The position numbers were made by a program, and so were the translations under genes. Source: Pelosinus propionicus DSM 13327 (GTDB taxonomy: Bacteria > Bacillota > Negativicutes > DSM-13327). From it: a stretch of 64,000 bases of DNA. Location: positions 1-64,000 of the forward strand of contig NZ_FOTS01000006.1 in assembly GCF_900114615.1 (NCBI RefSeq), given 5' to 3'. This document shows positions 5,694 through 35,716 of the stretch, piece by piece (positions within the stretch are counted from its first letter, which is position 1; each line of letters starts with the position of its first letter). The notes beneath the pieces were generated by a model. It had not been told where the DNA came from, searched no databases, and saw only the letters and a list, made by a program, of their open reading frames with translations.

Positions 5694-6068
5694 TTACATA
5701 GCCTGCAGCTTTAATAATTGACTTTCAATCTGATTTAACGCATCCAGCATTGCTGTATTCTTACTGTCTTCTCTGTGTATTTTTTCTTTTAGTTGACTGA
5801 TGCTGCACCCATTAACTTCTTTAAAATTCTTGAATCTAGCTAAGATGCTAAACCCTTTCATCATTCGACCTTCTATAATATCTCCGACTTCATTGCTGAC
5901 CAGAATAACAATCGTACCAGCAGACAGCTTTCTTTTTTTTGAACCGATGCCAATAACTCCTTTTTTTCTTAGTTCATCAACATTACTTCGAAAGTCTTTT
6001 ACTTGAAAATACGTTAAAATCATTTGCAGGACATAAAACAAGAAGGCAATCAGCAGTAATTTTTCCAT
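5694..6068 (-). CDS. gutM: Glucitol operon activator GutM
   Basis: A 124-residue GutM/SrlM family protein. Residues 3-21 (LLLIAFLFYVLQMILTYFQ) form one membrane segment, followed by the family core NVDELRKKGVIGIGSKKRKL. In Escherichia coli, GutM activates the gut operon alongside a repressor. Here it heads the PTS genes and follows a SorC-type regulator. A strong AAGGAGG precedes the ATG. Confidence 0.9.
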   Translation of the reverse strand: MEKLLLIAFLFYVLQMILTYFQVKDFRSNVDELRKKGVIGIGSKKRKLSAGTIVILVSNEVGDIIEGRMMKGFSILARFKNFKEVNGCSISQLKEKIHREDSKNTAMLDALNQIESQLLKLQAM

Positions 6069-15765: not shown

Positions 15766-16989
15766 TTACAGCTCACCGTGAAAGCATTTAACAGCACCAG
15801 CAGCTTCCAATCTGACAACATCAGCCTCAGAGTATCCATATTTCAACAGATACTCACGGGTATGGTAGCCAATAGGCTTTGAAGTTCTAAGCTCAGGATC
15901 ACCGATGCTCTTTATTCTAATTGGACTTGTAGGAATCATCCTCTTGCCGAACTCTTTGTAATGCAATGGCCTTAAGATATCGTTAGCATACGCTTCTTCA
16001 TCGGCAAGAACATCGTCAACAGTGTGACATTTCTGATATGGAATCTCATTTTGCTTAAAGATAACTTCCCATTCATCAAATGTTTTTGCGGCAAATGCTT
16101 CATCAAGCATTTTAATTACTTCGCCGGTTCTCTTATGTTCGCCGATTACCTCAAGGGTATCATACTCTTTATTCCCCACTAAATGCCCAAGACCAAATGC
16201 GGTAAACATTATATCAAAATACTTATTGTAATTGCCATTACAGATCAGGAACCAAATATCATCTTTGGATTTGTAGCAATTGTTTGTAGGACAGGGAACT
16301 TCTTTTCTTGATCTAGGATATTCTGCACCAACCTGACGTGAAACCATGGCAAGCTGCATCCCCCAGACAGCCGTGTGGTAGAGGTTGACAACAACCTTAT
16401 CCCCCTTGCCGGTTCTTTGCTTGTTAACCAAGGCAGCCAAAACACCCGCAGTCAGAGCAATGGCAGCGTTAAAATCGCCGAATGCAACTACTACATTAAC
16501 AGGGCTTTCCCCTTTCTGGGGAAAGCTGGTAATCAAACCGCCCCGAGCAGAATAAGCAGTAGCATCAAACCCCTTCGAATCCTTTTCCGGCCCTCTTTCA
16601 CCATAGCCTCTCATGTGACCGTAGACGATATGCGGAAATTTGGCGCTGATGGTTTCGTAGTCCAGACCTAATTTTAATAAGGCCTTATCTCTGAAGCTTG
16701 TAACAACAATGTCAGCACTCTCAATCATCTTATAGATGAATGCAAGCCCCTCCGGATTCTTAAGGTTAACGCTAATCCAATTTTTGTTCATACTGCTCAT
16801 ATCGAATGCAGGATCCTCAAGATCATTTCGTTTCATACCAAAACCTGGCCCCTGGGTACGCTGCTCATCGCCAGTAAATGGCTCAATCTTAATAATTTCT
16901 GCGCCCATCTCGCCAATAATTCGCGGGCATGCCGGTCCTGCTACATAAGATGTTAACTCTATTACTTTGATTCCCTCTAAACCTTTCAT
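15766..16989 (-). CDS. Type III (CaiB/BaiF-family) CoA transferase, copy 1
   Basis: A 407-residue family III CoA transferase. It begins LEGIKVIELTSYVAGPACPR, has SMNKNWISVNLKNPEG in the first third, and the expected catalytic aspartate in VAFGDFNAAIALTAG. Such enzymes move CoA between carboxylic acids through an aspartyl-CoA ester. The longer frame begins 30 bases upstream, but the ATG at 16989 sits behind AAAGGGAGGGGGG and is chosen. It is the last gene of the long CoA operon, after the FadK-like ligase. CaiB of carnitine metabolism is the best-known relative; the substrate here is unknown. Confidence 0.9.
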   Translation of the reverse strand: MKGLEGIKVIELTSYVAGPACPRIIGEMGAEIIKIEPFTGDEQRTQGPGFGMKRNDLEDPAFDMSSMNKNWISVNLKNPEGLAFIYKMIESADIVVTSFRDKALLKLGLDYETISAKFPHIVYGHMRGYGERGPEKDSKGFDATAYSARGGLITSFPQKGESPVNVVVAFGDFNAAIALTAGVLAALVNKQRTGKGDKVVVNLYHTAVWGMQLAMVSRQVGAEYPRSRKEVPCPTNNCYKSKDDIWFLICNGNYNKYFDIMFTAFGLGHLVGNKEYDTLEVIGEHKRTGEVIKMLDEAFAAKTFDEWEVIFKQNEIPYQKCHTVDDVLADEEAYANDILRPLHYKEFGKRMIPTSPIRIKSIGDPELRTSKPIGYHTREYLLKYGYSEADVVRLEAAGAVKCFHGEL

Positions 16990-17018
16990 TTGCGCCCCCC
17001 TCCCTTTTGCTTTGTTCA

Positions 17019-18668
17019 TTAAATACTCGCTCTATTCAGCCTCTCCAGGTTTATTTTTTTTATAATGTCTTGGCGCAGCACAAACTTTTGAATTTTTCCC
17101 GACGGAGTCTGGGGGAGAAACTCTACTATTTCGATTCGTTCAGGATATTTACACTTAGCCACATTCTTTAATGCAAAAAAAGATTTTACCTCTTCCAATG
17201 TTAGCCCCAAATCAGCATCATTTAGCACCACATAAGCACAAATCCGTTCCCCCAGCCTTTGATCAGGCATCGCTACCACACCTGCTTCCCGAATGTTTGG
17301 GAATTGGAGAAGAATATTTTCAATTTCAACACTGCTTATATTTTCTCCACCGCGAATGATAACATCTTTTATTCTCCCTGTAATCCTGATGTAGCCATCA
17401 TCATCCATAATGCATAAATCACCGCTGTAATACCATCCCTCATCATCTAAGACTTGAGCAGTCAATTCAGGTTCTTTTAAATAACCTATAAAGACATTGG
17501 GTCCGCGGGATGCCTGCTCTCCCTCAATTCCTGCCGGCAGCGGATGCCGTGCCTTGTCAACGACGCGTATCTCTACACCTGGTACAGGCACCCCATCAGT
17601 ATTGAATACTTTTTCAACAGGATCGTGCAAACCTACGGCAGTATGGGGTACACTCTCAGTAGAACCGTATACACTCAGTACTTTCAGTCCCACGTCCAGT
17701 GCTTCTTTAACGATGTGCCTGGGTATCGGGGCTCCGCCGCACAAAAAGAAACGTAGTGAAGAGATATCGTATCTTTGTTTATTTAAGGAGCAAAGGATAT
17801 CATGGACAAATGGTATGGCACCCATGCTGCAGGTGCATTTCTCACGCTCAATTAATGCAAGACAAGTATCTGGCTTAAATATATCCTGCAATACACTTTT
17901 AGCAGCAAACATAAAGGTTGCAGTCACACCGTGATGAAAACCAGTAGCGTGCGCCACTGGCGCTGGCATCAGCATCACATCGAGATTACTGAAATGAAAC
18001 GCCGCCGCAAACGCTTTTTCACTGGCAATAATATTATTATGGGTAAACATAACACCTTTAGGAGAGCCACTTGTTCCAGATGTAAAGAGAACGGCAGCAA
18101 GATCATCTGCTTTACAAATGGTGTCACTCGCTAATGGGCGGTATTCTTGTATGACCTTGGTAAATGTATGGCCCTCATTAACTGTCTTCTCCTTTTCTAC
18201 CATAACTGTTTCCCGTAGACTAGGAATTGTCTGAACCAGCAAATCTACCATTTTTAGATAGTTAAATTGTCTAAACTCAGCCGCATAAAAGAATACTTTC
18301 GATTCACATGTAGTAAGAATATGCAATAATTCTTCGGCACGATAACATGGCAGGATAGGGTTTATAACTGCCCCCACCTTTAAGCACGCCACGTAAATTA
18401 CCGTAAATTCAGCCCAGTTAGGTAATTGTACAGATACAAAGTCACCTGGTATCACCCCTGCGTCTTTTAAAAAGGCTGCTACTCTATCAGAAGCATCATC
18501 AAGTTCAGCATACGTATAGCAAGTTCTTTCCAGGTCCACCACCGCTATCTTTTCCGGAGAGCTTAAAACCGCCATCTTCCAGTAATCTGCCAGTGTGGCG
18601 TCACCCCAGTAGCCCTTTTGGCGATATTCCCGTTTCCGCCATTCTGTAGACGTTAGCCTTGAAGACAT
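17019..18668 (-). CDS. Acyl-CoA synthetase, FadK/CaiC-like
   Basis: A 549-residue AMP-forming ligase. The P-loop LFTSGTSGSPKGVMFTHNN, the YGSTES adenine motif, the YYSGDLCIMDDDGYIRITGR hinge and the C-terminal PSGKIQK with its catalytic lysine are all present. Overall it resembles FadK, an anaerobically used short/medium-chain acyl-CoA synthetase, from its N-terminal RKREYRQKGYWGDATLADYW onwards. It would activate the carboxylate substrate and supply the starter CoA ester for the CoA transferases. The next gene begins 29 bases after its stop. The true substrate cannot be read from sequence. Confidence 0.9.
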   Translation of the reverse strand: MSSRLTSTEWRKREYRQKGYWGDATLADYWKMAVLSSPEKIAVVDLERTCYTYAELDDASDRVAAFLKDAGVIPGDFVSVQLPNWAEFTVIYVACLKVGAVINPILPCYRAEELLHILTTCESKVFFYAAEFRQFNYLKMVDLLVQTIPSLRETVMVEKEKTVNEGHTFTKVIQEYRPLASDTICKADDLAAVLFTSGTSGSPKGVMFTHNNIIASEKAFAAAFHFSNLDVMLMPAPVAHATGFHHGVTATFMFAAKSVLQDIFKPDTCLALIEREKCTCSMGAIPFVHDILCSLNKQRYDISSLRFFLCGGAPIPRHIVKEALDVGLKVLSVYGSTESVPHTAVGLHDPVEKVFNTDGVPVPGVEIRVVDKARHPLPAGIEGEQASRGPNVFIGYLKEPELTAQVLDDEGWYYSGDLCIMDDDGYIRITGRIKDVIIRGGENISSVEIENILLQFPNIREAGVVAMPDQRLGERICAYVVLNDADLGLTLEEVKSFFALKNVAKCKYPERIEIVEFLPQTPSGKIQKFVLRQDIIKKINLERLNRASI

Positions 18669-18720: not shown

Positions 18721-19731
18721 TTAATTTGCTTTGATCTTCCTTATTTCTTCAATCAAAACAGGGACTACCTCAAACAAATCTCCTACGATTCCATAATCAG
18801 CAACACCAAAAATAGGTGCATCTGAATCTTTATTGATGGCCACAATGATGTCTGATGAGGACATTCCTGCTAAATGCTGAATCGCTCCTGAGATACCGCA
18901 GGCAATATATATTTTAGGTCCAACCGTTTTCCCTGTCTGCCCCACTTGATGAAGAGGGGATATCCAGCCGGCATCAACAGCAGCCCTAGACGCTCCTACA
19001 GTGGCTTCCAACACTTCAGCCAGCTCTTTAATGCAGGCAAAATTTTCAGGTTTCCCTAAGCCTCTTCCTCCGGAAACAATAATTTCTGCTTCCTCTAGAT
19101 TCACTGCCGTTTCCCCTGCAGCTTTTATAAAGCCTATAATTTTTGTTCGAATCTCTTCTGACGGTGTCCTAATTTCCTCACGTATAATAGCTGCTGTTCT
19201 GCTAAAGTCAGGCTGTGTCTTTTTAAACACTCCCGTCCGTACCGTTCCAATCTGCGGTCTTGAAGCAGAGCATAATATCGTAGCCATAAGATTTCCGCCA
19301 AATGCAGGTCTTGTCCAGGCCACATCTCCCGTTTCCTCATTAATTTCGAGTCCTGTACAATCTGCTGTCAAACCGGTCGCCAACCTGCAGGATACCCTTG
19401 GTCCTAAATCTCTGCCATTATTCGTAGCTCCAATTAAGATCACCGATGGCTTATACTTTTCTACTAACCTCACCATGACATTAGTATAGCCGTCAGTATT
19501 ATAGTCCGTATATTCTTCGCCCTCTACTACAATAACCTCATCCGCGCCATAGGCAGTCACAGTTTTAGCAGCAGCATCCAGCTGTTTGCCAATCACAATG
19601 GCAATCAGTTTCTCATAATTAGCATCTGCCAGGACTCGCCCTTGATTTAACAGTTCTAAACCTACATTTCTAACTTCACCGTGAGCCGTTTCAATAAAGA
19701 CCCATACATTTTTATAATCCTTACTATCCAT
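18721..19731 (-). CDS. etfA: Electron transfer flavoprotein alpha subunit
   Basis: An EtfA of about 336 residues. The C-terminal FAD-binding region shows SGGRGLGKPENF, GASRAAVDAGWISPLHQVGQTGKTV and YIACGISGAIQHLAGM, all typical. It accepts electrons from the acyl-CoA dehydrogenases coded nearby and pairs with EtfB just upstream. The ATG at 19731 overlaps the etfB stop by a few bases, so expression is coupled. Confidence 0.95.
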   Translation of the reverse strand: MDSKDYKNVWVFIETAHGEVRNVGLELLNQGRVLADANYEKLIAIVIGKQLDAAAKTVTAYGADEVIVVEGEEYTDYNTDGYTNVMVRLVEKYKPSVILIGATNNGRDLGPRVSCRLATGLTADCTGLEINEETGDVAWTRPAFGGNLMATILCSASRPQIGTVRTGVFKKTQPDFSRTAAIIREEIRTPSEEIRTKIIGFIKAAGETAVNLEEAEIIVSGGRGLGKPENFACIKELAEVLEATVGASRAAVDAGWISPLHQVGQTGKTVGPKIYIACGISGAIQHLAGMSSSDIIVAINKDSDAPIFGVADYGIVGDLFEVVPVLIEEIRKIKAN

Positions 19732-19733
19732 TG

Positions 19734-20534
19734 TTAGCACCCCCGATTCAATAACTTAGCAACAACTAATTTTTCAATAAACTTAAGAGCTGACTCTCTG
19801 CCTGTACCTTCTTGAATTCTTATACCTGACTCTTTTCTAGGCGGTGTAAATGTTTTCTTTACCTTGGTCGGCGACCCCTTAAGACCAATTTTTGTTAGAT
19901 CAATTTCTGGCAAATCCGCAGCCGTTATCACTTCTATCACAGCTTTATTCGCTGCCATTTTACTTTTTATATTTGCATATCTGGGTTCATTAATTGATTT
20001 AATAACTGTGCATACTACGGGAAGTTTAGCTTCAATTACCTCATAGCCTTCATCATGCTCTCTCTGAACAGTAATTTTTTCTCCGCTAACTTCGATCTTG
20101 GCAATAAAGGTTAGCTGTGCAATTCCAAGATGCTCTGCTATTTCGGGTCCGACTTGTCCCGTGTCACCGTCGATGGCCTGCTTACCGCATAAAACCAGAT
20201 CAAATTTTCCCAGCTTTTTAATTGCCGTTGCTAATATATAGCTCGTTGCCAGGGTATCTGATCCCCCAAACAATCGATCACTAATTAACACCGCTTTATC
20301 TGCTCCAACGGATAGGCATTCTTTTAAAGCAGCTTTCGCTTGATCAGGTCCCATGCTGATTACCGTTACACTGCCGCCATGTGCTTCTTTAAGCTGCACC
20401 GCTGCTTCAAGAGCATTTTTATCAAATGGATTTACAATACTTGGCACACCAGCTCGAATCAGCGTATTGGTAACTGGATCGATTTTTATTTCCGCAGTAT
20501 CTGGTACTTGTTTAACACAAACTAAAATATCCAT
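19734..20534 (-). CDS. etfB: Electron transfer flavoprotein beta subunit
   Basis: An EtfB of 266 residues, starting MDILVCVKQVPDTAEIKID. The nucleotide loop reads CGKQAIDGDTGQVGPEIAE, closer to the DGDTxQVGP form known from FixA and other bifurcation-capable ETFs than to the AMP-binding form of mitochondrial ETF. This hints at, but does not prove, a second FAD and electron bifurcation. It lies between acyl-CoA dehydrogenase and etfA in one operon. Confidence 0.95.
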   Translation of the reverse strand: MDILVCVKQVPDTAEIKIDPVTNTLIRAGVPSIVNPFDKNALEAAVQLKEAHGGSVTVISMGPDQAKAALKECLSVGADKAVLISDRLFGGSDTLATSYILATAIKKLGKFDLVLCGKQAIDGDTGQVGPEIAEHLGIAQLTFIAKIEVSGEKITVQREHDEGYEVIEAKLPVVCTVIKSINEPRYANIKSKMAANKAVIEVITAADLPEIDLTKIGLKGSPTKVKKTFTPPRKESGIRIQEGTGRESALKFIEKLVVAKLLNRGC

Positions 20535-20572: not shown

Positions 20573-21706
20573 TTATTTGAGCATTTCTTTTGCGATTACG
20601 ATTCTTTGAATTTGATTAGTACCTTCAAAAATCTGGAAAACTTTTGAATCCCTCATAAGCTTCTCAACAGGATATTCTTTACTAACACCATATCCGCCGA
20701 AAATCTGAACGGCATCTGTAGTTACCTTTACTACAGTATCGCCGCAGAACGCTTTTGTAATGGAACCTTCTTTTACTACAGGCTTATTATCATCCATTAG
20801 AATCATTGCATGATGAACTAACTGACGAGCAGCTTCCGTTTGAATTTCCATATCGGCCAAGATCATTTGAACTGCCTGGAATTGTCCAATCGGTTTTTTG
20901 AATTGAATTCTCTCTATCGCATATTTTACAGCTTCATCAATCGCAGCCTGGCAAATACCAACTGCTAACGTACCCACAAAAGCTCTTGAAACGTTCAAGG
21001 TATTCATAGCAGTTGTGAAACCTGTTCCCTCTTTTCCCAACAAATGATCCGCAGGAACTCTTACGTCTACGAAAGCTACATCTGTCGTATTCGATAACCT
21101 AAGTCCCATTTTATTTTCATGTTTGCCAACGACAATACCCGGGCGGCTTCTTTCTACAATAAACGCTGAGATGCCTTTAACTCCTTTGCTCTTATCCGTA
21201 GAAGCAAATACTACAAATACATCGGCGACTCCCCCATTTGTAACAAAGCACTTGGTAGCATTGATGATATATTCGTCTCCATCTTTAACAGCTGACGCCC
21301 TCATTGAGCTTGCATCCGACCCTGAGTTAGGTTCGGTTAAACAAAAAGATGCAAATGCTCCTGGAATGATCATGTCAGCAAATAACTTTTTCTGTGCTTC
21401 ATTTCCCGCCATGATAACGGACCTTAGTGCCACGAATGTCGTAACAAGAGAAATTGCATAGCCAGCATCAACCTTGGCTAATTCTTCAAAGACAGCAGCT
21501 GTTGTCTGATAATCGAGGCCCGCTCCACCATATTCTTCAGGTATTTCCAAACAATGCAATCCCATCTCAAAAGCTGGTTTGAGAAGTTCCATTGGAAATT
21601 CACCCGATTCATCAAGCTCTTTAACATGCGGTTTTACCTCTTTAATGGCAAAGTTTCTTACCATCTCGACTAATTCTTTTTGCTCTGCGGTTAATATGTT
21701 TCCCAT
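20573..21706 (-). CDS. Acyl-CoA dehydrogenase, copy 1
   Basis: A 377-residue flavin enzyme. FCLTEPNSGSDASS and CFVTNGGVADVFVVFA line the flavin, and the C-terminal IFGGYGVSKEYPVEKLMRDSK plus FEGTNQIQ carries the glutamate expected to be the catalytic base in butyryl-CoA-type dehydrogenases. It oxidises or reduces the alpha-beta bond of an acyl-CoA with EtfAB as electron partner. The ATG at 21706 follows GGAGG. A conserved promoter module lies about 70 bases upstream. Confidence 0.93.
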   Translation of the reverse strand: MGNILTAEQKELVEMVRNFAIKEVKPHVKELDESGEFPMELLKPAFEMGLHCLEIPEEYGGAGLDYQTTAAVFEELAKVDAGYAISLVTTFVALRSVIMAGNEAQKKLFADMIIPGAFASFCLTEPNSGSDASSMRASAVKDGDEYIINATKCFVTNGGVADVFVVFASTDKSKGVKGISAFIVERSRPGIVVGKHENKMGLRLSNTTDVAFVDVRVPADHLLGKEGTGFTTAMNTLNVSRAFVGTLAVGICQAAIDEAVKYAIERIQFKKPIGQFQAVQMILADMEIQTEAARQLVHHAMILMDDNKPVVKEGSITKAFCGDTVVKVTTDAVQIFGGYGVSKEYPVEKLMRDSKVFQIFEGTNQIQRIVIAKEMLK

Positions 21707-21773
21707 CTTTAATTCCTCCACTCAAATTCGATCCTGATAACCCCTACCACAGCTTAGATTTGATATGTTAAGC

Positions 21774-21858: not shown

Positions 21859-23031
21859 TTAAGAAACTCCGACAGCGCCCTGTTTCACAAACAAATCAAT
21901 TTCTTTCTTGTCGAACCCGAGTTGCTCCAGAATTTCTCTTGTATCCTGCCCCAAAGCTGGCGGATGTGCAGCAGATTGAAGGGAAATAGGAATCTCCGAT
22001 AACCTGTAGGGCAATTTAGTTTGCAGTATCTTTCCTACGATAGGATACTCTACATATTCCATGATCCCCGTATTGGATGCCACAATATCCTTAATGGCGT
22101 CTCCCATCTTTTTTACAGGGGTGATACAAATATCTTTATCTTTCAGCCAATCCATCCATTCTGCCTGAGTTTTACTGGCAACCAGCTGATCCATTCTCTC
22201 CCAAGCCTCCGGATCTTCGTGACGACGTAAAAACTGTTTTGGTATAAGATCTTGCATACCGGTGCTATCGCAAAAAATCTTCCAAAATTTATCTTCAACC
22301 ATACCAAATGACAATAGCCCTTTGTCACGGGTTTCATAAATATTGTAGCAAAGCGCGGGATATTCAATGGTCTCAGCAGAAATCTGATTTCCCTGGAAAT
22401 GATATCTGCTTGTTAACAGACTAAGCCACCATACTAGTGAATCAAACATTGGTATATCAACAGACTGGCCTGCACCTGTTCTTTCACGGTGATATAACGC
22501 TATGGCAATTCCCTGAGCAGCCGACGTAGCTGTTGCAACATCTGCTAAATGCAGCGGAGAAAGCTTACCTCCGTTTAATGACAAATAACCGCTTAAAGCC
22601 TGCAAGTTGACGTCATGAATTGCTTTTAAACTCATGGGATCATCTTGCCCAAAAGCGGACAGAGAACAGTAAATGATTCGAGGATTTATTTTCTTAATTT
22701 GAGCATAGTCAATACCCAGTCTTTTTGTAACTCCAGGACGATAATTCTCAATGATTATATCTGATTCTCTAGCTAACTTCTTAAAGATATTAAGTCCATC
22801 TTCACTTTTAAGGTTAAGAGTTACGCTTTTTTTATTGCGGCATAAGGCTGCAAAATAATAACTAACATTGTTAATTTTAGGCTCATCCCCCCTGCAAAAA
22901 TCGCCTTTTGCCATTTCTTCTACTTTAATCACTTCTGCCCCAAGATCTGCAAAGACCTGTGTTGCATATCCTCCTGGTAAATACCTTGTTAAGTCTAGAA
23001 CCTTTAATCCGGCAAATGACTTTTCATTCAT
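21859..23031 (-). CDS. Type III (CaiB/BaiF-family) CoA transferase, copy 2
   Basis: A 390-residue family III CoA transferase: FAGLKVLDLTRYLPGGYATQ at the N-terminus, CRNKKSVTLNLKSEDG, and the catalytic aspartate in LHLADVATATSAAQG. It is only distantly like copy 1, so the two may have different acyl partners or CoA donors. The ATG at 23031 directly follows GGGGGGAT and is preferred over a TTG upstream. The alcohol dehydrogenase gene ends 110 bases upstream, with a strong hairpin between. Confidence 0.9.
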   Translation of the reverse strand: MNEKSFAGLKVLDLTRYLPGGYATQVFADLGAEVIKVEEMAKGDFCRGDEPKINNVSYYFAALCRNKKSVTLNLKSEDGLNIFKKLARESDIIIENYRPGVTKRLGIDYAQIKKINPRIIYCSLSAFGQDDPMSLKAIHDVNLQALSGYLSLNGGKLSPLHLADVATATSAAQGIAIALYHRERTGAGQSVDIPMFDSLVWWLSLLTSRYHFQGNQISAETIEYPALCYNIYETRDKGLLSFGMVEDKFWKIFCDSTGMQDLIPKQFLRRHEDPEAWERMDQLVASKTQAEWMDWLKDKDICITPVKKMGDAIKDIVASNTGIMEYVEYPIVGKILQTKLPYRLSEIPISLQSAAHPPALGQDTREILEQLGFDKKEIDLFVKQGAVGVS

Positions 23032-23078
23032 TCTGCATCCCCCCAAATTCTCTAATACATTTAGCCTCTTATCCTTAC

Positions 23079-23140: not shown

Positions 23141-24190
23141 TTAAGGCTCAAGTATGATCCGCAGCCCTTGTTTCTGGTCAAGTAAATCCATACCTTTTTC
23201 CCAATCCTTTAAGGGCAGTACATGAGTTGCAATTGGCCCCACATCTAAACCACCAGCAATCATGTTACAAGCTTGGAACCAATTTTTAAGATTATAAGCA
23301 CGATTTCCAACAATTGAAATTTCTCGCATTGCGATCTGTGTCATCATAAGCTCGCTTGGTTTTGCGGGCAAACCAGTTACCCCGATTCTTCCCCCCTTAG
23401 CTGCCATTTGGACAGCTTGTTCAACTACGGTTTGATGTCCAGCAGCATCTAAAATCACATCTGCGCCCTTGCCGCCAGTAAGCTCTCTTATTTTAGCGAC
23501 AGAATCCTCTTCGCTAGCATTGACAATAAAGTTCGCACCTAGGGTCTTTGCTGTTTCTAATCTGTCCTTATCAGCGTCAGTACCAACTACAATTACATTG
23601 CCAACGCCCATGTTTTTAAGAACAACAAGCATCAGTAAACCAATAGCGCCTGGCCCAATAACAACAGCACTCTGACCGAATTCGGGCTTCACTCTTTCAA
23701 CAGCATGAATTGCCACGCAGAGAGGTTCCATTAATGCTGCATCTTTAAAGCTTACAGCATCTGGGAGTTTGATAATATTTTGCGCTCTAACAGCTACATA
23801 TTGCGCAAAACCACCATCATAATCCGTTCCGAGGAATGGACGGTTATCACAGATATTGATAATTCCCTCAGCACAATAACTGCATTGTCCACAATACAGT
23901 ATCGGATTTACAGTAACACGATCCCCAACTGCCATATCTTTCGTTTGGCTGCCAACTTCTGTAATAACCCCGGAAAACTCATGACCAAAGATGGAAGGGT
24001 ACGAAAGCTTATAGGAGTTTGCAATTGCTGCGTTCCAGTGAAATAAAGAGTGATCTGTTCCGCAAATACCACTTGCTTTAATTTGGACCAAAACCTGGTC
24101 AGGAGCAATCTCAGGAATGGGCACAGAAGCGAATTCCATGCTATTTGGGGCAGCTTTCGTCTTTATAACAGCATCCATCATACCTTTCAT
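23141..24190 (-). CDS. Zinc-dependent medium-chain alcohol dehydrogenase
   Basis: A 349-residue MDR-family dehydrogenase (threonine/sorbitol dehydrogenase type). Catalytic zinc ligands appear in GICGTDHS and GHEFSG, the structural-zinc loop is CGQCSYCAEGIINIC, and the NAD-binding turn is VIGPGAIGLLML. It would oxidise a secondary alcohol with NAD. It sits 28 bases after the SDR gene, so two different alcohol oxidoreductases act in the same pathway, which suggests a substrate with more than one hydroxyl or a two-step oxidation. The start has AAAGGAGAGAG in front. Confidence 0.92.
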   Translation of the reverse strand: MKGMMDAVIKTKAAPNSMEFASVPIPEIAPDQVLVQIKASGICGTDHSLFHWNAAIANSYKLSYPSIFGHEFSGVITEVGSQTKDMAVGDRVTVNPILYCGQCSYCAEGIINICDNRPFLGTDYDGGFAQYVAVRAQNIIKLPDAVSFKDAALMEPLCVAIHAVERVKPEFGQSAVVIGPGAIGLLMLVVLKNMGVGNVIVVGTDADKDRLETAKTLGANFIVNASEEDSVAKIRELTGGKGADVILDAAGHQTVVEQAVQMAAKGGRIGVTGLPAKPSELMMTQIAMREISIVGNRAYNLKNWFQACNMIAGGLDVGPIATHVLPLKDWEKGMDLLDQKQGLRIILEP

Positions 24191-24218
24191 AATAACTCTC
24201 TCCTTTTTATTTTAATGA

Positions 24219-25007
24219 TTACTGGCAGGACCAACCGCCATCTAGGATCATGGTTTGACCTGTTGTATATGACGATTGGGGAAGAACGAAATAAAGAACG
24301 GCAGCAGCCATTTCATCCACTGTTCCCATTTTGTGCAGCGGAGTACGATCTAAAACACCTTTGAGCCTTTCGGGATCAGACAATAATCCTGCAACCATAT
24401 CCGTCTGAACATAGCCAGGCGCTACGGCATTCACGTTAATATTATAAGGAGCCAGATCAATTGCAAGCGCTTTAGTCATCGACATCAAAGCACCTTTCGA
24501 TGTGCAATATGGAACAATTCCCGGCATAGCACTAATGCCCCTTTGTGATGTCATACTTACGATTCTTCCGCCACCGTTCTTAGCCATAACCTTAGCCGCT
24601 GCCTGAGCAACAAAAAATCCGGAAGTCATATTCAGTGCAAAAAGTTTTTCCCAATCTTCTCTAGTGACATCAAGGGTGCTGCATCGTGGAAGTGCCATCC
24701 CTGAATTATTTACGAGAATCGTAATAGCTCCAAATGCTTTACATGCCTGTTCCATTAGATTGTCGATATCTGCCTGAACAGTAACGTCAGCTGGAACACC
24801 AAGAGCTTCCCCCCCGTTTTCCTTGATTGCAGTGCAAACTTCTGCCAGTTTCTCTTCTCTGCGTCCGGCGACTACTACTTTTGCACCTGCAGAGGCGAAG
24901 GTTTCTGCAATTCCACGTCCAATTCCGGTTCCTCCGCCAGTGACAATCGCTACCTGTCCCTTTAGAGGCAACCCGGCAAACCAATTTCCTTTCACTGTAT
25001 TCTCCAT
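24219..25007 (-). CDS. Short-chain dehydrogenase/reductase (FabG-like)
   Basis: A 262-residue SDR. The cofactor motif GGGTGIGRGIAE lies near residue 25, NNSG in the middle, and the catalytic YCTSKGAL later, with VNAVAPGYVQTDM beyond. It is the first gene of the long CoA operon. Related proteins act on 3-hydroxyacyl-CoA, gluconate or cyclic alcohols. The specific substrate is unknown. Confidence 0.92.
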   Translation of the reverse strand: MENTVKGNWFAGLPLKGQVAIVTGGGTGIGRGIAETFASAGAKVVVAGRREEKLAEVCTAIKENGGEALGVPADVTVQADIDNLMEQACKAFGAITILVNNSGMALPRCSTLDVTREDWEKLFALNMTSGFFVAQAAAKVMAKNGGGRIVSMTSQRGISAMPGIVPYCTSKGALMSMTKALAIDLAPYNINVNAVAPGYVQTDMVAGLLSDPERLKGVLDRTPLHKMGTVDEMAAAVLYFVLPQSSYTTGQTMILDGGWSCQ

Positions 25008-25455: not shown

Positions 25456-26748
25456 TTATATATGAAGCATAGACCCTTGCGAGATTTTCTCTTCAATTGG
25501 TCTAACGTTACAGCTGATTAACAAGATCATTGCACCTACTAGAGCTACACCAGCACCTACGAATAGAGCATATTCATAACTACCGAAATAATCAATAATG
25601 CACCCAGTAATGGTTGGAGCAGTGACTCCTCCAATTGTAGCAAAAGTAGCAAACACTCCAGTGATCTTCCCTGCATTCCTATGAGAAAAGACAATAGGCA
25701 TAGAATAAAATCCACCCATGGTAAGGCATAAGAAACCATTGGATGCTGAGATAAGTGCGACTGCAGTGCCGACGCTGGCAGCTTGTGACCCAACTATTAA
25801 TAAAATCCCAGCAGCGATCATGCCAATGACAGGATATAATTTTCGTCCAATATTATCTCCGAATTTTTTAGCCGCACAATCAGCCAAATATCCTCCCAGA
25901 GGATATGTGAAGGTTGCAACAAGATATGGAAACATAGAATACATGCCTGTTCTATCCATGGTAAGATGACGTCCGAGAGCGAAATACGTTGGTAACCATG
26001 TCATAAATAAATATAAGAGATAATTCGCACAAAAATAGGATACTGCACAGCTCCACACGGATCTGGTTGAAAAAATATCTCGTGCAGTCACGCAGGCAGC
26101 CTGACTGCAAATTCCCTGTGGTCCCTGATCAGCTCTGATATATTCCAGTTCTACTTTGCTGATTGCAGGATGTTGCTCTGGCTTATCCTTACCAAACTTC
26201 TGCCAAAGCAGGACCCAAATGGGAGCAATAAAAGCAAATGTATAGAATATACTCTGCCAATTCCAATTCTGCATAATCCAGACGGAAAGAGGCATGGTGA
26301 GAACAATTCCAATAGGCACACCCATGAGGCATAATCCCTGTGCGAACCCTGATTCCTTTTTTGGTATCCATTGCGCCACGATGGAAGAATTCGCGGGCAG
26401 ACAAACTCCCTCTCCTAAGCCCATTGCTATGCGTATTGCCAGCATTAAGCCTAGCGTTGAACCAAAGGGAGTCAGAAATACAAAGACCGACCACCATAGA
26501 GCACCAATGATTACAATTTTACCACCACCAAACCGGTCGGCCAGCCAGCCTCCCAGAATTTGAGTACAGCCATAGCCAATAAAAAATGCCGTTGAGACCA
26601 AGCCGAACTCTGTAGCCGTCCAATTAAAATGCTTCATCATTACTGGACCGGCAATTGACATGCACGATCTGTCCATATACAAAACAACATAACATAGTAC
26701 AATCAAAAAAATGATCTCCCAGCGTTTATTGCCAACCTTTGCATTCAT
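25456..26748 (-). CDS. MFS transporter of the anion:cation symporter type, copy 1
   Basis: A membrane carrier of about 430 residues with around 12 hydrophobic segments. DRSCMSIAGPVMMKHFNW after the first helix, GGWLADRFGGGK between helices 2 and 3, and GVCLPANSSIVAQWIP in the fourth follow the ACS-family pattern (hexuronate, 4-hydroxybenzoate and similar organic anions). The frame runs 87 bases further up, but the ATG at 26748 follows GGGGAGG and matches the start of copy 2. It probably imports the carboxylate used by the CoA cluster. Confidence 0.92.
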   Translation of the reverse strand: MNAKVGNKRWEIIFLIVLCYVVLYMDRSCMSIAGPVMMKHFNWTATEFGLVSTAFFIGYGCTQILGGWLADRFGGGKIVIIGALWWSVFVFLTPFGSTLGLMLAIRIAMGLGEGVCLPANSSIVAQWIPKKESGFAQGLCLMGVPIGIVLTMPLSVWIMQNWNWQSIFYTFAFIAPIWVLLWQKFGKDKPEQHPAISKVELEYIRADQGPQGICSQAACVTARDIFSTRSVWSCAVSYFCANYLLYLFMTWLPTYFALGRHLTMDRTGMYSMFPYLVATFTYPLGGYLADCAAKKFGDNIGRKLYPVIGMIAAGILLIVGSQAASVGTAVALISASNGFLCLTMGGFYSMPIVFSHRNAGKITGVFATFATIGGVTAPTITGCIIDYFGSYEYALFVGAGVALVGAMILLISCNVRPIEEKISQGSMLHI

Positions 26749-26835
26749 AACTCTTCCTCCCCAATACTCTTTAGACACAATAGCTCGTATGACTTTGTTT
26801 AACCTGGCTGCATCGGGATGTTTAGTTTGTAACAT

Positions 26836-26870
26836 AAGATGCTGGACAAGATTACCTGCTCCAGCATCTT
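26836..26870 (-). terminator. Hairpin between the two MFS genes
   Basis: AAGATGCTGGA (26836-26846) and TCCAGCATCTT (26860-26870) form an 11-bp stem with a 13-base loop, just after the stop of MFS copy 2. A poor U-tract makes full termination doubtful. Confidence 0.5.
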
Positions 26871-26890
26871 TGCCAGTATCTACAATTTAT

Positions 26891-28192
26891 TTAAATATGA
26901 GGGTCTACGGAGCGAGGGGGCAACGCAGTCTTATTTTCCACCGCTTTGACTGTACAAATAGTCAATAATATAATTGCGCCCATCACGGCTACAGCGGCAC
27001 CAAAATACATAGCATAATCATAACTCTTCGTATAGTCAATAATCATACCGGTCAAAAGCGGAGCGGATAATCCTGCACATGTGCCACAAAATCCATATAA
27101 ACCAATAATCTTACCAGCATTCTTCGGTGAAAAGATCATTGGCATGGAAAAGAATGGAGCCTGGGTTATGGATAAACAAAATATTGACGCGGTTATAAGT
27201 GCGATAGCACCTTCCGGACTACCTACGCGAGTTCCAAGTATCAGGAAGAAACCAGCACCAATTAAACCAATGATTGGATACATTTTACGCCCTGCATTAT
27301 GTCCGAATCTTTTTGCCGCGCGGTCAGCTATAATCCCACCAAGAGGATAAGCAATCATTGCAAACATATAGGGAATCATGGTCATATAGCCGCTCTTAAC
27401 AAGTGTGAAACCACGGCCATTCACAAAGTAGGTTGGCAGCCACGCAAAAAATAAGAAAAAGAGATAGTTGCTTGTAAAATAGGCCAATGCAGAGGTCCAT
27501 ACAGATGGGGTTGAAAAAACATCTTTTGGAGTCACGCTTGCAGCCTCACCTGAAAGCTGAACCGGACCTTTATCTGCTTTGATGTAAGCTATTTCTTCCT
27601 TGGTTATTGTCGGGTGCAGCTCCGGTTTGTTCTTACCAAACTGTGACCATAACAGAATCCAAATTGGACCAATAAAAGCGAAGGTATAAAATACCATCTG
27701 CCAATTCCAATTGTGCATAACATAGATTGCAAGGGGCATTGTAAGAGTAATCCCTAAGGGGGTCCCAATCATAACAATACCTTGGGCTGTTGCTGACTCT
27801 TTTTTGGGTACCCATTGAGCCAGCAATGAACCATTACAAGGCAAAATAACACCTTGGCCCACACCCATAATTGCACGCAGCACGATCATTAAACCAATGG
27901 TTGCCCCGAAGGGTGTAAGAAATTGAAAGATAGAGTACAAGAAAATTCCGACTACCATAATTTTGCCGCTGCCGAACCGATCGGCTAAATAACCGGCTGG
28001 TAACATCGTAAGGGCATAACCGATAAAAAATGCTGTTGAAACCAAACCAAACTGTGTAGCTGACCAACCATACTCCTGCATCATTATTGGTCCGGCAATT
28101 GACATACTGGACCTAGAAAGATACATAGCAGTATAACTCAGTAACATCAGGGTGACAATTACCCACCGTTTTTTGCCAATCTTTGAATTCAT
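26891..28192 (-). CDS. MFS transporter of the anion:cation symporter type, copy 2
   Basis: A 433-residue carrier clearly paralogous to copy 1 along its whole length: SRSSMSIAGPIMMQEYGW, AGYLADRFGSGK and GVILPCNGSLLAQWVPKKES match position by position. Two tandem copies point to duplication and divergence, perhaps for uptake of related acids or for exchange of substrate and product. The start has AAGGAGG. A 14-base palindrome lies 26 bases upstream. Confidence 0.92.
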   Translation of the reverse strand: MNSKIGKKRWVIVTLMLLSYTAMYLSRSSMSIAGPIMMQEYGWSATQFGLVSTAFFIGYALTMLPAGYLADRFGSGKIMVVGIFLYSIFQFLTPFGATIGLMIVLRAIMGVGQGVILPCNGSLLAQWVPKKESATAQGIVMIGTPLGITLTMPLAIYVMHNWNWQMVFYTFAFIGPIWILLWSQFGKNKPELHPTITKEEIAYIKADKGPVQLSGEAASVTPKDVFSTPSVWTSALAYFTSNYLFFLFFAWLPTYFVNGRGFTLVKSGYMTMIPYMFAMIAYPLGGIIADRAAKRFGHNAGRKMYPIIGLIGAGFFLILGTRVGSPEGAIALITASIFCLSITQAPFFSMPMIFSPKNAGKIIGLYGFCGTCAGLSAPLLTGMIIDYTKSYDYAMYFGAAVAVMGAIILLTICTVKAVENKTALPPRSVDPHI

Positions 28193-29726: not shown

Positions 29727-30565
29727 TTACATACTCCTTCCCGCTTTTCTGCGCTATATTTGCTATGTTCATTTTCATACAGCTTATACATACGCTGACG
29801 TGACATAAGTACATTAAAATCCACTTTATGACCATCAAATTCTGGACCATCGACACAGGCAAACTTATTTTCATTGCCAACCAAAACTCGGCACCCGCCA
29901 CACATACCCGTGCCATCAACCATAATGGGATTCAGGCTGACAATTGTTGGAATCCCGTAAGGGCGTGTCGTTTCAGCAACAAATTTCATCATAATTACAG
30001 GTCCAATGGCAACAACAAGACGAATCCTTTTATCAGAATCTAAGAGTTCTTTAAGAGGCTCTGTAACCAGAGCTTTACGTCCTTTGGAACCATCATCAGT
30101 TGTGATAATCAGTTCATTACTGACTGCTGCCATTTTTTCCTCATAAATCAAAATATCTTTAGAGCGAGCACCAATAATAGAGATGACTTCATTGCCAGCT
30201 TCCTCCATACCACGAGCAATAGGATATACAGGGGCGATACCAATTCCGCCGCCTACACAGACTACTGTGCCGATTTTTTCAATATGTGTTGCTTTGCCAA
30301 GAGGACCAACCAAGTCCAGTAAGAATTCGCCTGTATTCAAAAGGCCCAATTCGCTTGTAGAAGCACCAACTTCTTGAAAAAGGAGCGTAATCGTACCTGT
30401 CTCCCGATTAAAATCGGCAATAGTCAAGGGAATTCGTTCCCCATTTTCATTCATCCGCAGAATAACAAATTGACCTGGCTGGGCTTTTCGCGCAATAAGC
30501 GGTGCTTCTATTTCAAGAAGTTTAACATTCGGTGCTAATTGCTGTTTCAGAAGAATTTTATACAC
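29711..30565 (-). CDS. nfnA: NfnA-like FAD/NAD/[2Fe-2S] oxidoreductase subunit
   Basis: A 284-residue protein of the dihydroorotate-dehydrogenase electron-transfer/NfnA family. It shows the FAD motif RIPLTIADFN, the NAD motif VGGGIGIAPVYPIARG and the C-terminal cysteines GTGMCGGCRVLVGNENKFACVDGP that bind a [2Fe-2S] cluster. The open frame extends 120 bases upstream, but the GTG at 30565 lies behind GGAGGAGA and begins the conserved part. It is divergent from a LysR gene. Confidence 0.9.
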   Translation of the reverse strand: MYKILLKQQLAPNVKLLEIEAPLIARKAQPGQFVILRMNENGERIPLTIADFNRETGTITLLFQEVGASTSELGLLNTGEFLLDLVGPLGKATHIEKIGTVVCVGGGIGIAPVYPIARGMEEAGNEVISIIGARSKDILIYEEKMAAVSNELIITTDDGSKGRKALVTEPLKELLDSDKRIRLVVAIGPVIMMKFVAETTRPYGIPTIVSLNPIMVDGTGMCGGCRVLVGNENKFACVDGPEFDGHKVDFNVLMSRQRMYKLYENEHSKYSAEKREGVCKCHSC

Positions 30566-30679
30566 AAGCGATCTCCTCCAAGTAAGAATAATCCATCGGC
30601 ATTTGCCGTTTGTTCTTGCACATTCTTTTTGTTTTATGATAAGCTTCTTTTGCAGGAAATTAGATTCATCTTGTTGAAG

Positions 30680-30713
30680 TTGCAAATTGTAAATACAAAG
30701 AATATTATGAATC
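30680..30713 (-). promoter_or_regulatory. Possible fourth, weaker copy of the shared operator
   Basis: On the minus strand ATTCATAATATT followed by GTATTTACAATTTGCAA partly matches the upstream block of modules A-C. It lies in the divergent region between nfnA and the LysR gene, a normal place for a LysR-type site. No TATAGT-type -10 follows. Confidence 0.35.
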
Positions 30714-31789: not shown

Positions 31790-33805
31790 TTAAAGAATTT
31801 CTTTTTTTTGCAGGGACTGGGCAAGAATTTCTGCTATATCCAGTGTACGAACCTGTTCCTCAGCATTATGTGCCTTAGTACCATCGAGCATCATTGTCAG
31901 GCAATACGGGCAAGCCGTAGCAATAACCTCAGCCCCTGTTGATAGAGCCTCCTTTGCTCGAACCTCATTGATACGCTGCTGTCCGTTGCCGATTTCTTCC
32001 TCCATCCAGTTGCGCCCCCCGCCAGCGCCGCAGCAAAATGCCTCTTTCCTGCTGCGCTCCATCTCAATCACGCTTACTCCCGGTACTGCCTGCAGGACAG
32101 AGCGAGGTGCCTCAAACACATTGTTGTGACGTCCAAGATAGCAGCCGTCATGATAAGTCACCTTTGCATCAAAGGGACCATCTACTTTAATTTTGCCACA
32201 CCTGACAAGGTCGGCAAGAAGTTCCGAATGATGGATGACTTCAAATTCACCGTTAAAATCGGGATAATCATTTTTGAGAGAATTGAAGCAGTGAGGGCAG
32301 AGAGTAATAATTTTTGTAACCCCCATTTCCTTAAATAACTCCACATTTCCTGCAGCCAATGGCTGGAACTCAAATTCGTTGCCCATCCGGCGGATCGTCT
32401 CACCGCAGCATGGCTCATCATTACCTAGAACACCATAATTCACTCCTGCTGCATTCAGAACCTTTACCAACGATCTGCTCACCGCCTTAGCCCGGTTGTC
32501 ATAGGCTCCAGCACATCCCACATACAGCAGATACTCAGCCTCATCGGACCATACAGGAACTTCCAATCCATTCATCCAATCACCCCGGCTGCTGCTGGAA
32601 AGTTTCCACGGATTGCCGCTTTGGTAGCAGTTGAAAGCACGCTGCACATCTTCTGGCATTCGGGCTTCAGTCATAACCATATAACGCCGTAGATCAACAA
32701 TTTTCTGCACATGCTCATTGGAAACAGGACAGGCTTGTTCGCAGGCACGGCAGGTCGTACAGGACCAGATGAACTTGTCGGAAAAAATCCCTTCCACAAT
32801 CATCTTATCGAGAATGGACTGCTCAGCTTCCGTAAATTGAGGCTTTTCCTCTCCCGCAGCTTTAATTTTATCCAACAAAGGTGCCTTCTTTTCCATATGG
32901 GCGCGCAGCTCAACATGCAGCGCACGAGGATCTAGAGGTTTACCAGTCTGAAATGCCGGACACTGTTCTGTACATCGGCCGCATTGCACGCAGGTGTAGG
33001 TATCAAAAAGCTGTTTCCAGGTAAACTCTTCCACTTTATTAACTCCAAAGGTTTCCGCTGTTTCATCTTCAAAATCAACTTTCTCTAGAGAGCCTTTGGG
33101 ACGTAAAGTATGCCAAAATGCGTTGGCTGGCGCAAATGCCAGATGCAGATGCTTAGAGTGAGGAATGAGTACTCCCATCAAACCCATTGCCAGGAAATGT
33201 GTCCACCATGCCCCCGTTGCTATGATTTCAAGAGTTGCAGGCGAATGCTGTCCCAGCAATCCTGATACAAAATTAGAAAAAAAGGCACTGCCGCGAATAC
33301 CGGCATTTTCTCCAAGTGCAAAACTGGCACCATTATATAAAAGATCTCCGGTGACGATAAGACTAATGAAGCCAAGAATAGCAAAAGCTTCCACAGAATT
33401 ATTGATACGATCCGGTTTCAGTACCGTACGCCGAAGTATCGCCACAATAACCCCCATATATACAAGCAGCAGAAAGCTCTCTTTCAACCCGATAAACAGC
33501 CAATTGTCACCAATAAATGGCACTGGAACGCCAAACAGCCCTTCCACTGCCAGATTCATCGCACCAACACCGAGCACGATAAACCCCCACATGATCATAA
33601 CATGGGCGAAACCAGAAATAGGATCCTGTATCACCTTATCCTGGCCTACGACATTTGTCAGAAAGTATTTCAGTCGATCGTTAGGTCGATCATTCCTGTT
33701 CTCTGGTTTTCCATGAAGAGTATTTTTGAACCTGCGAAGAATCATATACGCCATCGAGCCAAAAGTAACCCCCATCCAGGCTAAAAAGACTACGATCTTC
33801 ACCAT
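31790..33805 (-). CDS. Membrane iron-sulfur oxidoreductase (ETF:menaquinone oxidoreductase-like)
   Basis: A protein of about 671 residues. The N-terminal third has five or so membrane helices of the heme-b/NarI-like type. Two [4Fe-4S] ferredoxin motifs, CVQCGRCTEQCP and CTTCRACEQACP, follow, and then two CCG domains with EPCCGETIRRMG and AFCCGAGGGRNWMEE. This is the layout of the DUF224/HdrD-like membrane proteins proposed to link ETF to menaquinone in syntrophic and related anaerobes. Here it would connect EtfAB and the acyl-CoA dehydrogenases to the quinone pool. The ATG at 33805 is preferred over a TTG at 33811. Confidence 0.88.
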   Translation of the reverse strand: MVKIVVFLAWMGVTFGSMAYMILRRFKNTLHGKPENRNDRPNDRLKYFLTNVVGQDKVIQDPISGFAHVMIMWGFIVLGVGAMNLAVEGLFGVPVPFIGDNWLFIGLKESFLLLVYMGVIVAILRRTVLKPDRINNSVEAFAILGFISLIVTGDLLYNGASFALGENAGIRGSAFFSNFVSGLLGQHSPATLEIIATGAWWTHFLAMGLMGVLIPHSKHLHLAFAPANAFWHTLRPKGSLEKVDFEDETAETFGVNKVEEFTWKQLFDTYTCVQCGRCTEQCPAFQTGKPLDPRALHVELRAHMEKKAPLLDKIKAAGEEKPQFTEAEQSILDKMIVEGIFSDKFIWSCTTCRACEQACPVSNEHVQKIVDLRRYMVMTEARMPEDVQRAFNCYQSGNPWKLSSSSRGDWMNGLEVPVWSDEAEYLLYVGCAGAYDNRAKAVSRSLVKVLNAAGVNYGVLGNDEPCCGETIRRMGNEFEFQPLAAGNVELFKEMGVTKIITLCPHCFNSLKNDYPDFNGEFEVIHHSELLADLVRCGKIKVDGPFDAKVTYHDGCYLGRHNNVFEAPRSVLQAVPGVSVIEMERSRKEAFCCGAGGGRNWMEEEIGNGQQRINEVRAKEALSTGAEVIATACPYCLTMMLDGTKAHNAEEQVRTLDIAEILAQSLQKKEIL

Positions 33806-33855
33806 AATCAACCACTCCCTCTTCCAATCTTCAATTCATTTCCTATGCATACAGA

Positions 33856-34392
33856 CTAGGACTGCAGCTTAAAATAGTCCGATACCCTATCTAAGGGAAC
33901 CTCTAGTAATCCTATTGTTTTGCTATATAAATAGATGATAAAACCTCGTTTACAGCGAAAGACACACTGCTGGCAGGTGCTTCTGTTGCAATACACATAA
34001 GCGTCCTCATCGGATAAAGGGAATACCACGGGCGGCTGCTTCTTTGAAGTCACATACTTCATGTAACCTCCGACGAAGGTCTTTAGCAAGATCCACTCTG
34101 GATTGTTTTCTGGCGGTTTCGTTTCCCAAAATACTTGCACCGCATTCTGATTGAAACCTCCAACAATCTTGTAATCTACATTAAAATCAGCCGGTACATC
34201 CTCTAACTGCTGCGGTTTCAACTGTTCCATGGACGTGCCGCAGCAAGCTGGTTCTTTAGCTGGCATATCATAGCCCATTCCCTGGTATAGCCTGCTGCAA
34301 TAACTACAGCGATAGATTACCATATCGGGACATTCCGGCCAGGGCTTTCTGGCTGCCTTGCTTCTTAGCGGCCCAAATTGCAGTTCTGCCAA
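33856..34392 (-). CDS. Desulfoferrodoxin-like protein lacking all histidines
   Basis: A 178-residue protein. The N-terminal part has RCSYC (29-32) and ACCG (50-51), the CxxC...CC spacing of a desulforedoxin iron site. Residues about 70-150 look like the superoxide-reductase beta fold (NAVQVFWE, EWILLKTFVGGYMKY, FPLSDEDAYVYCNR). The protein has no histidine at all, so the usual Fe(His)4Cys site cannot form; instead four cysteines cluster at 135, 140, 143 and 147. It starts with TTG behind GGAGGGG. It lies between the second acyl-CoA dehydrogenase and the membrane oxidoreductase. An electron-carrier role is plausible; the fold call is by eye. Confidence 0.6.
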   Translation of the reverse strand: MAELQFGPLRSKAARKPWPECPDMVIYRCSYCSRLYQGMGYDMPAKEPACCGTSMEQLKPQQLEDVPADFNVDYKIVGGFNQNAVQVFWETKPPENNPEWILLKTFVGGYMKYVTSKKQPPVVFPLSDEDAYVYCNRSTCQQCVFRCKRGFIIYLYSKTIGLLEVPLDRVSDYFKLQS

Positions 34393-34531
34393 TTTTCACC
34401 CCTCCCAGTACATTCTGAAATCGTTTTTTATCTATACAGAATGTGATCTGCTGGTTTTGGCTTTTTCCCAATACTATATTTTTCAAAAGGGGCATCGGCC
34501 TTAATGCCGATGCCCCTCTGGCATTTCCGGA

Positions 34532-35716
34532 TTACTCCTCATACTTTAAAATACCACCATGTGCTATCGTCTGGCGGGAAATGGTAATGCGCTGTACAGT
34601 TGGAGTACCCTCTTCCAACCACATTGCACGGGAATCGCGATATAGACGTTCAACCGGACCATACTCGCAATCTTCAAAATATCCAATACCACCAAAGATC
34701 TCCAGCATTTCATCACCACATAGTTTAGTGACTTGGATACTGAACAGTTTGCACATAGCAGCCTTCTCTTCAATATATTCTCCTTTAGGATCCTTTTCAT
34801 AGTCCTTAGCAAAATCATAAACCATAGTTCTCAAAGCATGGATATACGTAGCCATGTCAGCAATCTTCATTCTAATCGCCTGACGCTCAATAATGGGTTT
34901 GCCAAAAGTAACACGATCCTGAGCACGCTTAAGGCTTATTTCCAACATACGCTGAGCCATTCCTAAATTGCTGGCAGCAATATGGACACGGGAAACCGAT
35001 AGAGAATGAATCGAAATATGAAGTCCGTCACCGATTTTACCGAGTAAGTATTTTTTGTTTACTCTCATGTTCGTAAACTTTAAACCGGTATGTCCCGAAC
35101 CACGGCAGCCCATCATATGGGGCATGGGAGTCGTTTCATAACCCGGAGTATTACAAGGAACCATAAAGGTAGAGAGACGGTGCTCTTTATCCGCTTTCGG
35201 GTCGGTAACACAAGTAATATAAGCATAATTGCAGCAATCCGTATGGGAAATCAAAAATTTTTCTCCATTAATGACGTAATCGTCGCCGTCTTTTACAGCC
35301 AATGTTTGAAGATCGGCACCAGTTCCGCCTTTTTCTTCGGTAACGGCCCAGCAGGTGAATACAGATCGATCTTGGAACCCAGGCATCAATTCAGCCTTTA
35401 ACTCTTCGGTACCAAAATCGTACAGGGGTCGCCAGTTTAAATCCATGGCATAGTGGAGATGCATGCGCATTCCGCCTGGTCCACGACTAAATTCTTCCTG
35501 AACCTTAAGGATTTCCAGTTCGGAGAGACCCCATCCTCCATACTGCGTTGGAAGGGAACAGCGATACAAATTATTTTTGATACCGAGTTGATAGAATTCC
35601 TCGGGGAACACATTCGTATCCTCAATTTCTTTCTGCATTTCATCGAAGCGCCCCTCGGTCAGTGCACGAATCTGCACCAAATAGGCTTTAAATTCTTCCT
35701 GCGTTAGCTTACTCAT
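34532..35716 (-). CDS. Acyl-CoA dehydrogenase, copy 2
   Basis: A 394-residue acyl-CoA dehydrogenase. The flavin loop reads TCWAVTEEKGGTGADLQT and the C-terminal block IFGGIGYFEDCEYGPVERLYRDSRAMWLEEGT (split across the active site) keeps a glutamate in the usual base region. It differs clearly from copy 1, for example in the SHTDCCNYAYITCVTD stretch, so it probably acts on another step or intermediate. AAGGAGG precedes the ATG, and a conserved promoter module lies 80 bases upstream. Confidence 0.92.
   Translation of the reverse strand: MSKLTQEEFKAYLVQIRALTEGRFDEMQKEIEDTNVFPEEFYQLGIKNNLYRCSLPTQYGGWGLSELEILKVQEEFSRGPGGMRMHLHYAMDLNWRPLYDFGTEELKAELMPGFQDRSVFTCWAVTEEKGGTGADLQTLAVKDGDDYVINGEKFLISHTDCCNYAYITCVTDPKADKEHRLSTFMVPCNTPGYETTPMPHMMGCRGSGHTGLKFTNMRVNKKYLLGKIGDGLHISIHSLSVSRVHIAASNLGMAQRMLEISLKRAQDRVTFGKPIIERQAIRMKIADMATYIHALRTMVYDFAKDYEKDPKGEYIEEKAAMCKLFSIQVTKLCGDEMLEIFGGIGYFEDCEYGPVERLYRDSRAMWLEEGTPTVQRITISRQTIAHGGILKYEE

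Follow-up and report, generated by a model that had tools for sequence, protein, structure and literature searches.

The window, a stretch of 64,000 nucleotides that opens contig NZ_FOTS01000006.1 of Pelosinus propionicus DSM 13327, encodes a histidine-free relative of desulfoferrodoxin (here SORL) that descends from the superoxide reductases (SORs), shares their fold, has lost every ligand of their Fe(His)4Cys centre (centre II) and carries four C-terminal cysteines that are invariant across its family. Its gene almost always shares a genome with one particular acyl-CoA dehydrogenase (ACD; ACD_WIN in the window). We suggest, at a probability of about 0.45, that SORL is a neofunctionalised desulfoferrodoxin whose new site is of the iron type and which serves an anaerobic CoA-ester pathway as a small, soluble partner in electron transfer.

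Descent and fold of the protein

That the protein lacks histidine (none in 178 residues), that its N-terminal CxxC...CCG is a desulforedoxin-type site (C29-X2-C32-X17-C50-C51; centre I) and that further cysteines stand at positions 135, 140, 143 and 147 (CX4CX2CX3C) had all been proposed in the sequence-only reading and proved correct (Table 1). GGGAGGGG stands upstream of the TTG start codon. The frame is under purifying selection, with dN/dS of ~0.06-0.3 against close relatives depending on the pair and the method (for a Pelosinus metagenome-assembled genome (MAG), dN is 0.043 and dS 0.384).

Table 1. Features of the SORL region and of the associated catabolic genes in the window
Feature	Position	Strand	Remarks
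Family III CoA-transferase	15766..17019	(-)	
Acyl-CoA ligase	17019..18668	(-)	AMP-binding; FadK-like, second best cyclohexanecarboxylate-CoA ligase
EtfA	18721..19740	(-)	
EtfB	19734..20534	(-)	
Second ACD	20573..21721	(-)	AcrC-like; second best cyclohexane-1-carbonyl-CoA dehydrogenase
Second family III CoA-transferase	21859..23046	(-)	
Zn-dependent dehydrogenase and SDR dehydrogenase	23141..25007	(-)	both also in Sporomusa locus L062
Two MFS transporters	25456..28192	(-)	recurrent beside SORL
EtfD/FadF-type membrane CCG-domain/[4Fe-4S] oxidoreductase	31790..33811	(-)	downstream of SORL
SORL, His-free desulfoferrodoxin-like protein	33856..34392	(-)	178 aa, TTG start, TAG stop
New cluster, Cys135-X4-Cys140-X2-Cys143-X3-Cys147	33952..33990	(-)	insert before last beta strand
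Centre-I-type site, Cys29, Cys32, Cys50, Cys51 (CX2C-X17-CC)	34240..34308	(-)	
Hairpin, 13-14 bp and short T tract	34488..34517	(-)	between ACD stop and SORL start
ACD_WIN, acyl-CoA dehydrogenase	34532..35716	(-)	394 aa, upstream of SORL

Neither PF01880 nor any other Pfam or NCBIfam model matches the window protein above cut-off, and TIGR00320 matches no better than weakly in 19 of 28 family members. Descent becomes apparent with a profile of the family itself, which retrieves desulfoferrodoxins from the PDB (E 1.4e-7 with hmmsearch, the next matches being antibodies) and aligns with ordinary desulfoferrodoxins at 99.3% in hhalign. Structure prediction with AlphaFold points the same way, both for the window protein (mean pLDDT 72, pTM 0.71) and for its Clostridium ljungdahlii counterpart (mean pLDDT 76, pTM 0.74): all nine Foldseek matches of the two models with E<=0.001 are SORs, VIA gives Z scores of 10.7-12.4 over ~119 residues against 2Fe and class III SORs, and the best structural match is the Treponema pallidum SOR 1Y07 (Z 11.8 and 12.4). 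The SOR-like fold suspected from the sequence is thus borne out by profiles and by both models, in which it is predicted as that of desulfoferrodoxin, a rubredoxin-like N-terminal domain followed by an Ig-like beta domain; the cysteine loop is of low confidence in each (pLDDT below 50).

The columns of the Fe(His)4Cys ligands are occupied in the window protein by F70, a gap, N96, S157 and I160, in agreement with the earlier claim that such a centre cannot be built. SORL is homologous to the SORs but lies outside them by the centre-II test. With desulfoferrodoxin, or 2Fe-superoxide reductase (Dx-SOR; 1DFX, 2JI1), it shares the fold, the N-terminal desulforedoxin site and the sequence profile, and it differs in the loss of all centre-II His/Cys ligands, in the four-cysteine insert and in standing in a catabolic operon instead of a stress context. 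The class III SOR of T. pallidum offers a precedent for the loss of centre I, which is also seen in some SORLs; that enzyme, however, keeps centre II and acts as a superoxide reductase, whereas SORL has lost it. The 'Atypical SOR' class of SORGOdb likewise holds SORs with lost metal-ligand residues, but it concerns a mutated N-terminal site or fusions, and no four-cysteine insert with loss of centre II was found described there (PMC3116461). Nor does SORL qualify as a bacterial [4Fe-4S] ferredoxin, which has a CX2CX2CX3CP motif in a ferredoxin fold, the SORL motif being CX4CX2CX3C within an SOR fold. No description of the family was found in the literature of open-licence papers.

A family with two-site intermediates

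Does the cysteine pattern define a family? Scanning 84,980 species genomes returned 26 relatives, to which whole-genome searches added more, and the family as treated here comprises 29 members without histidine ligands and two intermediates (L059 and L132). The four cysteines are invariant across the 28 aligned members and in 29/29 of those free of the histidine site, including the divergent L060 and L112, which settles in the affirmative the sequence-only reading's question of a family pattern. These 29 span Bacillota, Actinomycetota and one Pseudomonadota MAG. A chance pattern is ruled out by this invariance across phyla, the more so because the same proteins show no conservation in the columns of the old SOR ligands. 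Centre-I cysteines are kept in 24 of the 29 and in both intermediates, and are missing from the five Adlercreutzia and sulfonate-type members.

The family is rare (7/300 genomes of the window's class; 3/398 of the phylum sample), and the 26 relatives from the scan come from Pelosinus, Sporomusa, Pelotomaculum, Bacillus sp. B15-48, C. ljungdahlii and others, Acetobacterium, Lachnospiraceae MAGs, Adlercreutzia, a Coriobacteriales fragment and a Telmatospirillum MAG. The last, assigned to Pseudomonadota (L007, L009, L144), holds two histidine-less SORLs and one histidine-bearing SORL, and may reflect either binning contamination or transfer from Bacillota. In Sporomusa termitida the gene lies on a 131-kb plasmid (NZ_CP036260.1 61600-62127), annotated 'hypothetical protein', and the stretch matching that plasmid, L062, also carries the ACD, transporters, an SDR, a Zn-dehydrogenase and a CoA-transferase; since this copy is plasmid-borne and L062 carries genes of the cluster, the cluster may move between species.

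The two intermediates combine both sites in one protein. L059 (genome G450, same phylum) reads ...ETHLP...LHPMEEEHFIEW...AYVYCDEDLCQECTFRCKRGFKIYSYCNQHGLWKFEL, has all SOR ligands together with the CX4CX2CX3C insert, and passes PF01880. L132 (L144 6083-6616, from the Telmatospirillum MAG) has SOR-type ligands in HPHPM..DH and AHCTKHGLW, the first histidine being displaced by one residue in the alignment, and an insert with a longer spacer, CX4CX6CX3C. Aligned with desulfoferrodoxin by BLASTP, L059 matches at both ends and its insert appears as an 18-residue gap before YCNQHGL. A MAFFT alignment had suggested that Cys135 is the old SOR cysteine ligand; this was ruled out, both because of that gap and because the structural matches extend to the last strand, the ligand column being that of Ser157.

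The 31 proteins that bear the insert group together in a maximum-likelihood tree (100/93), and when insert, tail and ligand columns are removed the branching is DFX / L132 / L059 / rest (99/94 and 97/70). Because L059 and L132 branch at the base and hold Fe(His)4Cys ligands and the four-cysteine insert side by side, the reading is that the insert was gained first and the SOR site lost later, as far as two single sequences, one of them from a MAG, can indicate. Recombination between desulfoferrodoxin and SORL in the two lineages may be an alternative source of the combined sites. Homologues with the normal histidine ligands, which the sequence-only reading would have counted against itself, do exist in L059 and L132, but these also bear the additional cysteines and are intermediates instead of a refutation.

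Genomic partners

An ortholog of ACD_WIN was found in 22/22 SORL genomes tested (65-99% identity), and in the class survey both genes occurred in the identical 7/300 genomes, always 134-193 nt apart, although these seven are related and do not count as seven independent events. The two genes thus almost always stand in partnership in the genome. Adjacency is less strict: the ACD of Adlercreutzia is found at another place in the genome, among FixC/Etf genes, and a divergent branch adjoins another enzyme altogether. In two genomes of one family, G189 (L060 6756-13709) and G717 (L149 5444-9254), divergent SORLs with the new cysteines, without centre I and with no ACD nearby adjoin Xsc (sulfoacetaldehyde acetyltransferase; TIGR03457 above cut-off), a class III aminotransferase being adjacent or within 3.2 kb. 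This branch takes the module beyond the ACD, so that of the earlier proposal of a dedicated carrier beside ACD genes, the standing partnership survives and the exclusivity and constant adjacency do not.

Gene order in Clostridium, Acetobacterium and Lachnospiraceae runs ACD, CoA-transferase III, second ACD, EtfB, EtfA, (transporter), acyl-CoA ligase, SORL, and the full SORL-associated gene set is also present in the window, at 15.8-35.7 kb. The neighbours of the intermediate L132 are a CoA-transferase, a ligase and an ACD paralog of 48% identity. A LysR gene usually adjoins SORL. In L015, as in the Acetobacterium loci, SORL begins within the acyl-CoA ligase gene, ~70 nt before that gene ends (5989-6058), and translational coupling of the two genes is likely. 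In the window, a pair of NADPH-glutamate-synthase-like and FNR-like genes that resembles NfnAB (28314-30685) separates one half of the acyl-CoA pathway genes from the other.

The gene had been placed between an ACD and an ETF:quinone-type oxidoreductase; the former holds, while the latter is not of the ETF-QO/FixC kind but an EtfD/FadF-type membrane protein. It probably links ETF to menaquinone, as does the mycobacterial EtfD-type protein of the same architecture (PMC13083937). Its gene adjoins SORL only in some Sporomusaceae-type loci, a patchiness to be expected if the protein merely ties the pathway to menaquinone in those loci.

The hairpin between ACD and SORL (-28.5 kcal/mol, z -5) is kept in 11 genomes, with compensatory changes on both sides at 8/13 pairs, a count reached in 0/500 shuffles. 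It resembles a terminator or attenuator, which suggests that less SORL than ACD is made; a consensus terminator scan misses it, probably because the T tract is short.

As to the substrate, the cyclohexanecarboxylate matches of the window ligase and second ACD fall below the cut-offs of those models. AroE (shikimate/quinate dehydrogenase) and AroD (3-dehydroquinate dehydratase) lie near the SORL operon in L059 (12975-16119), and AroE does so in L106 (17587-18504); these neighbours at two loci are only a hint that the pathway might handle hydroaromatic acids (quinate/shikimate). Among operons of known function, carABCDE of acetogens, which encodes caffeyl-CoA reductase (CarCDE, 6FAH), combines a CoA-transferase, a ligase, an ACD and EtfAB, and no SORL is known in it. 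ACD_WIN matches CarC at E 7.5e-45, with 11 other ACD sequences matching better, and the second ACD of L015 does so at 2.5e-91, level with several ACDs. In the six-gene bbu cluster for gamma-butyrobetaine, a ferredoxin (BbuD) is encoded alongside family III CoA-transferases and a flavoenzyme of the ACD family; the cluster has a betaine/carnitine/choline transporter but neither EtfAB nor an acyl-CoA ligase (PMC8364193). Identity with the caffeate or the gamma-butyrobetaine cluster is unsupported by orthology or transporter type.

Possible roles: redox partner, accessory or sensor

How might an antioxidant have entered such a pathway? An ancestral 2Fe-superoxide reductase appears to have gained a four-cysteine loop of 18-20 residues ahead of its last beta strand; the superoxide site, Fe(His)4Cys, was lost afterwards, as was the N-terminal Fe(Cys)4 in some branches. 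Iron is the most likely occupant of the new site, either as a mononuclear Fe(Cys)4 or as a [4Fe-4S] cluster, and SORL may pass electrons to or from the atypical ACD or its Etf, in a pathway presumably made up of CoA-transferase/ligase, two ACDs and EtfAB. A fuller version, which we advance tentatively and at clearly less than even odds, is that SORL represents a new class of metal site in the SOR fold: an inserted CX4CX2CX3C Fe-S site replaced Fe(His)4Cys by way of two-site intermediates that still survive, and an antioxidant thereby became an obligate redox module, in one case of an uncharacterised anaerobic acyl-CoA pathway that may act on hydroaromatic acids and in another of sulfonate catabolism.

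An electron-carrier function is plausible. Descent and fold, the invariant new cysteines in place of lost SOR ligands, the two-site intermediates with their position in the tree, the ACD ortholog in every genome tested, the pairing in the class survey, operons with EtfAB and CoA-transferase/ligase, and separate SORs in the carriers argue for a redox partner. BbuD provides a precedent: it is small, rich in cysteine and putatively redox-active, and its operon also encodes an ACD-type enzyme and CoA-transferases, albeit that it is a di-[4Fe-4S] ferredoxin of unrelated fold (PMC8364193). Against this reading, zinc would suit four cysteines equally, the loop that holds them is poorly modelled, the genes beside L060 and L112 encode Xsc and an aminotransferase, neither of which catalyses a net redox reaction, the conserved hairpin suggests unequal expression of ACD and SORL, the Adlercreutzia ACD lies apart, and EtfAB already serve dehydrogenases.

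The main rival is a non-redox accessory role, in which the four cysteines would bind structural zinc (or a structural cluster) and SORL would serve as the assembly, cofactor-loading or activating partner of the flavoenzyme in its operon. Four cysteines within 13 residues are compatible with structural zinc, two enzymes as unlike as ACD and Xsc are accompanied by SORL, the terminator-like hairpin after ACD suggests sub-stoichiometric amounts, and the ACD-like BbuA needed GroEL-ES and added flavin for soluble expression, so that such enzymes can need help (PMC8364193). We nonetheless consider this role less likely than that of a redox partner: SORL derives from an iron redox protein, most members keep an Fe(Cys)4-type site, and the operons are rich in electron-transfer genes.

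Less probable still is that SORL senses oxygen or redox state and adjusts the activity of its partner enzyme or the operon accordingly. Exposed cysteine clusters often sense oxygen, the ancestors are oxidative-stress proteins, SORL occurs in strict anaerobes, and HTH-SOR fusions of the known HTH-SOR class (L133, L142, L143) occur in some of the same genomes; SORL, however, has no DNA-binding domain, and the LysR gene that is usually next door already supplies regulation.

That SORL is still a superoxide reductase or another oxygen-defence enzyme is very improbable. The SOR fold and centre I persist, and L059 and L132 keep centre II, but the full ligand set of that centre is absent from all 29 other members, the context is catabolic, and most carriers have ordinary SOR genes elsewhere: the window's own genome encodes a separate PF01880 superoxide reductase, and PF01880 proteins occur in 20/24 other carriers (one of the two matches in G450 being L059 itself). 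A decaying, functionless superoxide reductase, to which the loss of the active site might point, is ruled out by purifying selection, invariant new cysteines, a fixed gene neighbourhood and conservation across phyla.

Under the redox-partner reading, an antioxidant appears to have become part of an anaerobic degradation pathway. If true, a metalloenzyme would have swapped one metal site for another with the intermediates still alive, and an evolutionary step that usually goes unseen would become testable. The family also flags an unannotated accessory gene tied to an uncharacterised ACD in acetogens and gut bacteria, and such genes should not be annotated as oxygen defence.
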